A stretch of DNA of 45,586 nt from Kiritimatiellia bacterium (GTDB lineage: Bacteria > Verrucomicrobiota > Kiritimatiellia > CAIVKH01). The stretch lies in the NCBI GenBank assembly GCA_025054615.1, contig JANWZO010000003.1:1-45586 (forward strand), read 5' to 3'. Numbering within the stretch: the first letter of the stretch is position 1; each line of letters begins with the position of its first letter. The notes beneath the pieces are model-generated. The model was not told the DNA's origin, did no database searches, and worked only from the letters and a program-made list of their open reading frames with translations. The position numbers and the translations under genes were made by a program. Of this stretch, positions 21,219-31,998 are shown piece after piece.

Positions 21219-23202
21219 TTACGGAGAGAGGGCCTCGAGCCGGCGAAGCCTTTCGCGGGCAAGCTGAAAGGCCGGATCCCGCGGGTGGCGTCGTAAAACG
21301 CCCAGTTCCTCCAAACGGCTGTAACAGAGGCGGGCCAGTTCCCATTTTTTCAGCGCATAAAATGCGTGCCCCGCATTGAGTAGCAGGTCCGGATTGGGCG
21401 ACGAGGCGAGTCGCAGCCCTTCAAGGGCAAATCCGGCCGCCGCAGAATATCGGCGCGTGGCGAGGCAGAACGCCGAAAGTCGAATGTTTCGGATCGGATA
21501 GACCCGCCTTTCGAACAGCCGATGCAGAATCGGGCCCCGTGACGTGCCATGCGCCACAATGATTTGACCCGCCTCAGAATCCGACCAGTCCGGATGATCC
21601 TTCCCGGGCTGGAAGGCCCCCAAAGCCGGAACATGGTCTGCAAATCCCATCCTTAAATAGACGGCGTCGCGAGCATCGAAATAGGCGAGGCGCCATTTCG
21701 GATCCCGATCGAAGTACGCGAGCCATTTGGGGGGATGTCCGAATACGGTATGACCACTGCGTCGGGCCGCCATCGGGCGAGGAATGAGGGCAACTCTCGC
21801 AGGTCCTTCGAACGCGCGTATTCGCGATAGAACATTCCGGGGATCGATTCGAGCGAGCCGTCAATAAAAACATCCCGTCGGGTCGCGAACGCCAAATAGC
21901 CGCCTGCATCGAGATTGTTCAGGATCCGCGCGCCCGAGGGCAAACCGGCGGCGTTGATGAAGGCCGCCGCGCCCACCGGGAGGAAATCCGGATTGAATCG
22001 ATGCCCGGTTCGCATAGGTGATTTCAAATATTCAAAATAGTTGCCGGATAACACCCACCAAGTCCCGGCTGCCGCGAGGGCCGCCGTGGCCGCCGGGAGT
22101 GCACGAATGAGTTGGGCCGATCTGCCGGCTGTCTGCCGCGAAGCCAGCCCGTCGAGATGGCCGGCCACGATTGGAAATGCGGCGATGAGGAAATATCCGA
22201 AGTTTTTCTCCGCCAAGCTGTACACATAGCCGAACAGGCCGACGAGAAGCCACTCCCGGAGGCATACGCGTCGAATGGATATCAACAGCGTCAGCGCGGC
22301 CAGGGCTGTGAACAGGTGCATCGCGAGAACCGGCTGAACGAGTCGGAATTCTCCGGTCGCCGCGAAATACCGGAAGAGCGAAAACGGCGACAGATGCTCA
22401 TGGATCCCGAACTCGGCCGATTTGAACGCGCTTCCCGTCTGCAAATTCTGCCACTGCTGAAATGGGACACAGATGCCCTGCCACCCGTATGGATTCGCCA
22501 GCGGCGCCGCGAGCGATAGCGCCGCGGCGAACCAGAACCGTCGATGCGCTCCAGCTTTGCCAAGCCGAAAAACCTCGACCGCGTGCGCAGCGATCGCGAC
22601 CCAGCCCAGAATGAACAGCGAGTGCGCATTCGCCCACACCAGCATCAAAACCGGCGAGATCCAGATCCAGCGGGTATCACGCCGATCCAGCAACCCCAAC
22701 AACAGCGCCAGGAAAAGCCATGAAACGACATGCGGACGAACCTCCCAATAATTGCCGAATAGCCCTATCAGCAGCAGGGGCGCCAGCCACGGCGAGATTC
22801 CGCCAGCGCGTTTGACGGCCTGGCTCGCCACAAGCGCATACGCCACGATCGCTGCAAGATAATGAGAGGCGACAAGTCCCGCCGTCCCCCAAACGCGGTA
22901 AATCGTCCACACGGTGATCTGATAAAGCCAATAGCTGTTGAAATATGGCGCGTCGACGGTGAGAGGAACAATTTGCGATCCGGCGCCCGTACGTGCTCGA
23001 TAATCCATCGACCTGTATTCAGGTGAAATCCAATATCCGGACTGAAGATTTCAACCCACGCCAGCGCCGCAGCAAAACCCGCCAAAAGCACCAACGAAAC
23101 CCACCACAACACGGCATCCCATGCTCTCTGCCCATGGCCAAGCCGATCAGATCCGGCGGCCTGCAGTCGGGCGGGGCTTTCTCGTGGGAGATTCTTTCGC
23201 AT
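21219..23202 (-). pseudogene. polytopic membrane protein with TPR-like tail, broken by two one-base frameshifts
   Basis: Three overlapping frames read as one ~660-residue protein. The N-terminal part (ATG at 23202) has a membrane segment and D-I-G-F-H-L-N-T-G-R-W-I-I-E-H. It shifts near 22965 into a long hydrophobic stretch with about ten membrane segments (A-P-Y-F-N-S-Y-W-L-Y-Q onward). Near 21730 it shifts again into the tail, W-L-A-Y-F-D-R-D-P-K-W, which ends in TPR-like helices (R-R-Y-S-A-A-A-G-F-A-L-E-G-L). At each junction restoring one C in a C-run gives a smooth reading (L-F-P-L-T-V-D-A-P and D-I-P-P-K-W-L-A-Y). The layout recalls GT-C-type membrane glycosyltransferases, but I see no diagnostic motif. 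Either a recent pseudogene or a sequencing artefact. Confidence 0.65.
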
Positions 23203-23401
23203 GGGCCGACGCTCCACCGTCACTCCGTTCGGCGGCGGCAAGGCGCTCTTCGGGCGAAATCAAAAAGGTCACCTTGCCGCGCAGCGTGCAGCCTGGCCGG
23301 CCAGGCACGCAGGTACACATCGCCCTGCGGCACAGGTTCGCCGCCTCATCGAAATGGGGGCAGTAAAAGCTCACGGTTCTCAAAGGGAAATGTCTCCCCA
23401 T
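23147..23401 (-). CDS. small cysteine-rich protein, function unknown
   Basis: An 84-residue frame with a Cys-rich core: F-Y-C-P-H-F-D-E-A-A-N-L-C, then M-C-T-C-V-P-G-R-P-G-C-T-L-R-G-K-V. That gives six cysteines in about 25 residues, plausible for a metal or Fe-S site. The ATG at 23401 is the first sensible start, though a GTG at the V-S-F-Y-C segment is also possible. The C-terminal part overlaps the start of the broken membrane gene by about 56 bases. Not recognised; coding status is moderately supported by the Cys pattern only. Confidence 0.4.
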   Translation of the reverse strand: MGRHFPLRTVSFYCPHFDEAANLCRRAMCTCVPGRPGCTLRGKVTFLISPEERLAAAERSDGGASAHAKESPTRKPRPTAGRRI

Positions 23402-23529
23402 CCTGCCCGTCGGGCAAGCGCAGAGAGTCGCGCGCCACGGCGGAGCGGCGCGCCGCGCTTCCGTAGTGAACCCGGCGAGCTCGAAAGCCTTCGGAGGCGG
23501 AGCGTTACCTGCTATTAAACGACAATTTT

Positions 23530-23565
23530 GAAACAAAATTTTGAATTATACTACATTTTTGTTTC
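23530..23565. promoter_or_regulatory. inverted repeat, candidate activator site of glnN
   Basis: GAAACAAAA (23530-23538) and TTTTGTTTC (23557-23565) are a perfect 9-bp inverted repeat in an AT-rich block. Its centre is about 145 bases upstream of the predicted sigma-54 start, where enhancer-binding proteins usually sit. The sequence is not the NtrC consensus. Confidence 0.45.
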
Positions 23566-23666
23566 GATCGATTTTCAAATTGACAACGCTTTGCGCGATG
23601 TCGATTCTTTCGCGAGTTTATGGAAAAACGAAGGTTGCGCAAACCGGTTGCCGGCGGGGCGGCCTA

Positions 23667-23682
23667 TGGCACAAAGCCTGCT
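23667..23682 (+). promoter_or_regulatory. sigma-54 (-24/-12) promoter of glnN
   Basis: TGGCACAAAGCCTGCT matches the consensus TGGCACG-N4-TTGC(A/T) at all but two specified positions. The GG-to-GC spacing is exactly 12 bases. It predicts a start near 23693, 54 bases before the glnN ATG. A glutamine synthetase gene behind a sigma-54 promoter is the classical nitrogen-regulated arrangement. Confidence 0.7.
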
Positions 23683-23746
23683 TCACGTGAGCGCGCCTTT
23701 GTTTTGTAAAGAAATTGTAAGGCCAACCAATGAGGAGCATGATCGT

Positions 23747-25930
<2,184 letters not shown>

Positions 25931-30621: not shown

Positions 30622-31998
30622 ATGGACGTATCTGTCGAGACGGTCTGGTCGAATGCCTGCAAAGAGCTCCGAAGCACTTTGTCGAAAGATGTTTTTGACC
30701 GCTGGATCGGCGTAATCGAGGCGCTGTCGATCGAGGGGGATACGCTCCACCTCGGTGTTCAGAACGATTTCTACCAGTGCTGGCTGGAGGAAAACTATCT
30801 TCCTCTCATCCAGGACGCAGTGGCGCTGGCGTATGGCAGCCGTTTAAACATTGTATTTCGAGTCTCCAAAGCGCCATCCGCTCCCCAATCTGATAAACCA
30901 CAATCGGCCGAGGGGACGACAGTGCACCGGGGGCGGTCTTCATCAGGCGCCGTCGCGCCTGCGGCGCTGAACCCAAAATATACGTTTGAAACTTTTGTCG
31001 TCGGGCCCTCGAACAGTTTTCCGCATGCGGCCTCTCTGGCGGTGGCCCAATCGCCCGGCAGGGCCTACAATCCGTTGTTCCTCTACGGCGGCGTCGGCCT
31101 CGGCAAAACCCACCTCATGCAAGCGATCGGCCATTCGGTCCTGCGCACGGGCCGCAGCGTCGTCGCCTACGTCACCTGCGAGGCGTTCACGAACGAGTAC
31201 ATCGATGCCCTGCAGCGGAAGGCGCTGGTTCAATTTCGCAAGAAATATCGAAACGTTGACGTGTTGCTGATCGACGATATCCAGTTCCTCGGCGGAAAAG
31301 AGCGGATGCAGGAAGAGTTTTTCCACACGTTTAACGCCCTCTTCGACAGCCACAAACAGATCGTGCTCACCTGCGACCGTCCCGCGAGCGAAATTCCGAG
31401 CCTCGAACACCGGCTGGTGTCTCGGTTCGAATGGGGGCTTGTGACCGAACTGGAACCGCCCGATATCGAGACGCGCATCGCAATCCTTCGCAACAAACAG
31501 GAAGAGCTCAACGTCAAATTGCCGGAGGAGATCATCAACTTTATTGCCGAGAAAATTCGTTCCAACATCCGCCGTCTCGAAGGGGCGCTGATTCGCGCGG
31601 CATCCTACGCCTCACTGACCGGCCGCCCGCTGACGATTGAGACGGTTGAACATCTATTGCGCGACACATTTGACCAGGAAAAACAGGAAACCCTGACCAT
31701 TGAAGAAATCCAAAAGATTGTCGCGGAATATTTCGACCTGCGGCTGTCGGATATGACGAGCAATCGCCGACCGCAGTCGATCGCGTTTCCCCGTCAGGTC
31801 GCGATGTACTTTTGCCGCCAACTCACCTCCCATTCGCTGCCAGTCATCGGAAGCGCATTTGGGAAAAACCATGCGACTGTGCTTCACGCATGTCGCCTGG
31901 TTCAGCATCGGCTGAAGGAGGACCCGGAATTCCGGCAGAACATGATGGTCCTCCAACAGCGCCTCGAACGACGAACGGACGGACGCCGCCAGTTGTGA
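30622..31998 (+). CDS. dnaA: chromosomal replication initiator DnaA
   Basis: AAA+ ATPase that binds DnaA boxes and opens oriC. It is 458 residues. Domain I starts W-S-N-A-C-K-E-L-R, and domain II is a short linker (~90-115). Domain III has Walker A G-G-V-G-L-G-K-T at 156-163, Walker B L-L-I-D-D-I-Q-F-L, and the sensor and R-S-N-I-R-R-L-E-G-A-L blocks. The domain IV helix-turn-helix has F-G-K-N-H-A-T-V-L-H-A-C, where most homologues read G-R-D-H-(T/S)-T-V. Ribosome-binding site GGAAAGGA. Flanked on both sides by DnaA boxes. Confidence 0.97.
   Translation: MDVSVETVWSNACKELRSTLSKDVFDRWIGVIEALSIEGDTLHLGVQNDFYQCWLEENYLPLIQDAVALAYGSRLNIVFRVSKAPSAPQSDKPQSAEGTTVHRGRSSSGAVAPAALNPKYTFETFVVGPSNSFPHAASLAVAQSPGRAYNPLFLYGGVGLGKTHLMQAIGHSVLRTGRSVVAYVTCEAFTNEYIDALQRKALVQFRKKYRNVDVLLIDDIQFLGGKERMQEEFFHTFNALFDSHKQIVLTCDRPASEIPSLEHRLVSRFEWGLVTELEPPDIETRIAILRNKQEELNVKLPEEIINFIAEKIRSNIRRLEGALIRAASYASLTGRPLTIETVEHLLRDTFDQEKQETLTIEEIQKIVAEYFDLRLSDMTSNRRPQSIAFPRQVAMYFCRQLTSHSLPVIGSAFGKNHATVLHACRLVQHRLKEDPEFRQNMMVLQQRLERRTDGRRQL

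Follow-up and report, generated by a model that had tools for sequence, protein, structure and literature searches.

In Pseudomonadota, NtrC is the usual sigma-54 activator of nitrogen genes. At E. coli glnAp2, NtrC has two tandem sites separated by about three helical turns, ~110 bp 5' of the sigma-54 promoter. Paired sites are also described for other members of this activator class: at the anfH promoter of Rhodobacter capsulatus, AnfA recognises two TAC-N6-GTA dyads in tandem (PMC7294313), and VnfA of Azotobacter vinelandii has GT(T/A)C-N6-GTAC pairs upstream of sigma-54 promoters (PMC9542535). In R. palustris, AnfA is inhibited by P-II proteins, which probably act on its GAF domain (PMC12093980), and DVU1949 of Desulfovibrio vulgaris is a predicted one-component sigma-54 activator of operons for nitrogen metabolism and transport (PMC4641369). 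For Kiritimatiellia, we found no papers on nitrogen control in the open library searched. Here we analyzed a stretch of 45,586 nucleotides from a Kiritimatiellia bacterium (the window), which is part of a genome of 2.48 Mb that is 95% complete. The window carries glnN, a gene for a type III glutamine synthetase (GSIII), behind a sigma-54 promoter and a pair of ACA-N4-TGT dyads 31 bp apart, which is probably the operator of the glnN promoter.

The glnN promoter and its paired dyads

A sequence-only reading of the window had placed a near-consensus -24/-12 element with correct spacing 65 bases before the ATG of a GSIII gene, and both the element and the gene identity were borne out (Table 1). 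The glnN product matches Pfam GSIII_N, and TGGCACAAAGCCTGCT agrees with 10 of 12 consensus positions, has 12 bp from GG to GC, ends 65 bp 5' of the ATG at 23747 and is kept 5' of orthologous GSIII genes. The score of this promoter, taken alone, is only suggestive; 93 of 3000 shuffles of 23566-23746 reach 10/12. In the same genome, where the earlier reading had proposed to look for them, we found rpoN. True sigma-54 activators, recognised by the GAFTGA loop, number three: L033, which has a GAF domain, and the response regulators L034 and L035. A sigma-70 promoter was also looked for in the AT block, with a single weak sigma-70-like match that overlaps the dyads as the result.

Table 1. Features of glnN and its upstream region, in window positions.
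Feature	Position	Strand	Basis or remark
glnN, type III glutamine synthetase (GSIII), 727 aa	23747-25930	+	Pfam GSIII_N 263.8 bits, Gln-synt_C
Sigma-54 -24/-12 element TGGCACAAAGCCTGCT	23667-23682	+	10/12 consensus positions; ortholog L003 has TGGCACGCGGCCTGCT in the same place
Predicted transcription start	23693	+	Inferred from the GC element, standard -12 numbering
Ribosome binding site GAGGAG	23732-23737	+	Sequence
9-bp inverted repeat GAAACAAAA-N18-TTTTGTTTC	23530-23565		Arms 23530-23538 and 23557-23565; overlaps both dyads
Enhancer dyad 1 (putative) ACAATTTTGA	23522-23531		5/6 fixed positions of ACA-N4-TGT; 31 bp 5' of dyad 2
Enhancer dyad 2 (putative) ACATTTTTGT, extended TACATTTTTGTT	23553-23562		6/6; centre 109 bp 5' of the -24 box
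Possible degenerate third dyad ACAACGCTTT	23583-23592		5/6, 30 bp after dyad 2; weak, uncertain

The dyad pair of the window scores 11/12 at a spacing of 30-33, a value reached by 0 of 3000 shuffles. Its dyads read GAC-N6-GAA and TAC-N6-GTT, neither of which is a perfect TAC-N6-GTA. Arrays of three dyads in 30-bp steps are present at amtB promoters of relatives. When the best dyad pair was taken from each of 30 Kiritimatiellia GSIII upstream regions, 25 had one with a spacing, counted start to start, of 30-33 (31 in 18 regions, 33 in three, 30 in three and 32 in one). Pairs scoring 11 or 12 of 12 occurred 17 times at spacing 31 in these 30 regions, vs 0.01 from shuffles, which test sequence and not function; the same regions lie behind the logo and were the set in which the dyad was discovered, which contributes to the conservation figures. 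The class dyad has an AT-rich centre and is often flanked by T and A, giving T-ACA-WWWW-TGT-A, and the -24/-12 element usually follows the centre of dyad 2 by 85-110 bp. TAC-N6-GTA, which is contained in the class consensus TACA-N4-TGTA, is perfect in 15 of the 30 regions. The NifA-type sequence TGT-N10-ACA was found in only 4 of the 30, the window's region not among them, and the paired NtrC-type sequence TGCACC-N5-GGTGCA reached at best 7-9 of 12 positions across all of them, in agreement with the earlier proposal that the activator does not use the NtrC site.

Two neighboring genes were also noted. On the minus strand 5' of glnN, a membrane-protein gene at 21219-23241 seems to be split over three frames (ORFs 22768-23241, 21653-23008 and 21219-21773), suggesting frameshifts or assembly errors, and an ORF at 30622-31998, 5 kb 3' of glnN, reads as dnaA.

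A predicted nitrogen-assimilation regulon

The dyad pattern derived from glnN, allowing up to one mismatch, was searched for in its own genome and returned four places: glnN itself; the porin-urtA operon for urea uptake, divergent from the urease genes, with TGGCACGGCTCTTGCC ~110 bp downstream of the dyads; an operon for an ABC transporter, where TGGCACATCGATTGCT follows the dyads by 99 bp; and a GC-rich place that is probably due to chance. Judged from its sequence, the ABC transporter is probably of the polyamine type; in Pfam its binding protein gave only a TAT signal, and its ABC ATPase carries TOBE_2. A scan for -24/-12 matches added a promoter with dyads 30 bp apart, 5' of a circularly permuted ATP-grasp gene (CP_ATPgrasp), and the relative G006 likewise has a dyad target from this Pfam family. 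The members in this genome were identified by pattern searches, and the list may not be complete. Taking all genomes together, two have a circularly permuted ATP-grasp gene among the predicted regulon members, and one has a transglutaminase/DUF2126 gene (L141 1501-2428; L255 1042-2589; L272 2-2242).

Across 288 genomes of the class, the combined pattern of dyad and promoter (TACA-N4-TGT, N80-109, TGGCAY-N6-TGC) matched 139 places, spread over 104 genomes, vs 13 for the reversed pattern, some of the genomes being closely related, so that the places are not all independent. We read the gene 3' of 108 places, made up of 30 loci that had been returned and 78 picked before their genes were known, with several known glnN places left out. 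The downstream gene was taken as the longest ORF starting just 3' and was compared by BLAST with a small local reference set, representatives being confirmed by Pfam. It was amtB at 43 places, GSIII at 30, another glutamine synthetase at 5 and gltB at 4, that is, a nitrogen-assimilation gene at 82 of 108. Because amtB lies outside the discovery set, the test on amtB targets is independent. For roughly one place in four no nitrogen gene is obvious, and among these remaining targets are ABC binding proteins of the NMT1 type as well as outer-membrane proteins. In G021 (L249 2862-5000), a dyad pair lies between an ORF for a GlnE/GlnD-like nucleotidyltransferase and a non-GSIII glutamine synthetase, with nadE beyond. 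These comparisons suggest that the class shares a nitrogen-assimilation regulon that has an operator of its own, and the shared regulon strongly indicates the nitrogen control of GSIII that the sequence-only reading had predicted.

The candidate activator and competing explanations

L033, the candidate activator of the window genome, is a protein of 517 aa with GAF, AAA+ and Fis-type HTH domains and without a receiver domain. It is encoded on contig C2, adjoining nadE and away from glnN, and no dyad pair was found upstream of this nadE-activator operon. L034 and L035 have receiver domains, and neither is linked to glnN. Matches to the GAF activator were present in 58 of 58 relatives searched, and in 13 of them (G004, G007, G010, G011, G016, G017, G019, G027, G028, G029, G032, G049 and G051) the gene lies, by coordinates, within 10 kb of glnN, often in the order glnN, glutamine-dependent nadE, activator. 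The dyads lie between divergent glnN and activator genes in G010 and G019. In G002 and G006 the activator gene is followed by a dyad array and then by amtB, after which G002 also has glnK. The GAF-AAA-Fis protein is likely to be the activator at these dyads.

Against TIGR01817, the NCBI NifA model, the GAF activator scores 551.6 bits, above the cutoff of 528.85. A nifH above cutoff was found in only one of the 58 relatives (G036) and not in the window genome. The HTH of the activator is conserved in the class, with the recognition helix AARLLQTTQRIFGYKV, and differs from the proteobacterial NifA helix of the AARxLGxTPRQ type, which reads TPRQ or TTRQ in plasmid NifA sequences. G036, the genome with nifH, carries two genes of the NifA family that differ in their recognition helix (L264 1595-3199; L265 1617-3155): the NifA-type gene near nifH has GITARMVRYKIQ, and the nadE-linked copy has KTTQRIFGYKVH, which is like that of the window genome. 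In the tree, the closer proteins of the class group together with support (100/98) and are separate from proteobacterial NifA, although its deep branches are long and uncertain. A more distant clade of activators (G010, G019, G025, G032 and G046) has a somewhat different recognition helix although the sites look similar. A plasmid search by HTH for AnfA and VnfA comparators returned unnamed activators only. In these bacteria, most of which do not fix nitrogen, a regulator that would be labelled NifA seems to govern nitrogen supply in general.

Three other explanations were weighed. The dyads might be bound not by the GAF protein but by L034, an NtrC-like response regulator of a divergent NtrBC pair; it is a receiver-AAA-HTH activator with a gene for a PAS histidine kinase just upstream, and its score against the NtrC model is 466 bits. 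This score is below the cutoff of 558.6, however, an NtrC-type site is absent, and whereas the GAF protein is near glnN in 13 relatives, no such linkage was seen among the L034-type matches in relatives; linkage is an indirect argument, but we regard binding by L034 as unlikely. An NtrC-controlled promoter was also rejected, there being no paired NtrC-type site and the glnN-linked activator having a GAF domain and no receiver. It is more improbable again that the dyads are operators of a repressor or of a one-component sigma-70 factor beside an unrelated sigma-54 activator. Such an arrangement would fit the weak sigma-70-like site that overlaps the window dyads, and also glnN of Fibrobacter succinogenes (L095, L099), where paired TACA-N4-TGTA-like dyads lie 29 bp apart, ~210-240 bases upstream, and no recognisable -24/-12 element is evident; across the class, however, the distance between the dyads and -24/-12 elements is nearly constant, which is how enhancers behave, and the reversed pattern occurs ten times less often.

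The sequence-only reading had taken the perfect 9-bp inverted repeat GAAACAAAA-N18-TTTTGTTTC as the site of the enhancer-binding protein. The repeat is present where it was reported, at the usual enhancer distance. Nevertheless, a perfect 9-bp inverted repeat with a spacer of up to 40 was seen in 133 of 2000 shuffles (7%) of 23530-23746, and the whole window contains 33 of them. A genome search allowing up to 3 mismatches gave no other copy, so that the repeat does not recur at other nitrogen genes, and it is missing from the nearest orthologs, including a 91%-identical one, in which the promoter and the dyads are kept. We therefore rejected it as the operator and judge it to be incidental, binding of an enhancer-binding protein to it being the least probable of the explanations considered; the dyad pair that it overlaps is the probable operator.

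Proposed mechanism and comparison with known systems

We consider it likely that glnN has a sigma-54 nitrogen-starvation promoter with an enhancer of two ACA-WWWW-TGT dyads, and that the GAF activator bound there switches on glnN and its regulon. The sequences directly show the promoter and the dyads, how these are conserved and spaced, that a regulon is shared, and that the activator gene is linked to glnN. We infer that the GAF activator binds the dyads and that nitrogen limitation is the signal. RNA polymerase with sigma-54 would sit at 23667-23682, and the one-component GAF/AAA+/Fis activator would bind the two dyads, three helical turns apart and ~110 bp upstream. When nitrogen is short, the activator would assemble on the tandem sites, loop to the polymerase and open it by ATP hydrolysis. 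The predicted outputs in the window genome are glnN, the porin-urt operon for urea uptake, the probable polyamine ABC transporter and the ATP-grasp operon, and in other Kiritimatiellia the same switch may drive amtB-glnK and gltB.

How the activator would sense nitrogen may differ among lineages. In some relatives the activator gene is near glnK. In the window genome, at 95% completeness, no AmtB was found, though relatives have amtB (and glnK) beside the activator, and no canonical GlnK was found either; the single P-II match, a weak P-II-like ORF adjoining an RND-type efflux gene, was rejected as GlnK. With AmtB and canonical GlnK apparently absent, the activator of this genome may sense a ligand directly, and direct sensing by the GAF domain is the simplest reading if the missing 5% hides no amtB or glnK. 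A much broader and more speculative idea, which we hold to be rather doubtful, is that a NifA/AnfA-family activator and not NtrC is the class-wide master of ammonium assimilation, that some lineages sense by GAF without AmtB/GlnK, and that nitrogenase-specific NifA and AnfA could derive from such regulators.

The arrangement proposed for glnN suggests how nitrogen control may work in Kiritimatiellia, and the regulon provides a ready set of promoters for testing it (glnN, amtB, gltB and urt). In addition, automatic annotation likely calls the activator NifA, which suggests nitrogen fixation where no nifH is found. The activator shares the GAF-AAA-Fis architecture with NifA and exceeds the NCBI NifA cutoff, but it differs from NifA in its sites, which are TGT-N10-ACA for NifA, in its recognition helix and in its gene context, and the window genome has no nifH. 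The glnAp2 system resembles the glnN locus in the spacing of tandem sites, in their distance and in being a sigma-54 promoter of a glutamine synthetase gene, whereas the site sequence is different, the likely activator at glnN has no receiver, and the enzyme is of type III rather than type I. DVU1949 is likewise a predicted one-component nitrogen activator, but with iorAB and DVU1952 as its gene context.

The VnfA sites consist of two motifs at similar spacing and have the GTA half in common with the class dyad, but differ in half-site letters and serve a vanadium nitrogenase and transport regulon. AnfA is a NifA-family, GAF-type sigma-54 activator with two tandem upstream dyads, and the class consensus TACA-N4-TGTA has the same core as its sites; unlike the AnfA targets, those of the class regulon are genes of nitrogen assimilation, most of the bacteria have no nitrogenase, and the window genome has no nif or anf genes. 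By analogy of the sites, the class enhancer may work like an enhancer of the AnfA/VnfA type.
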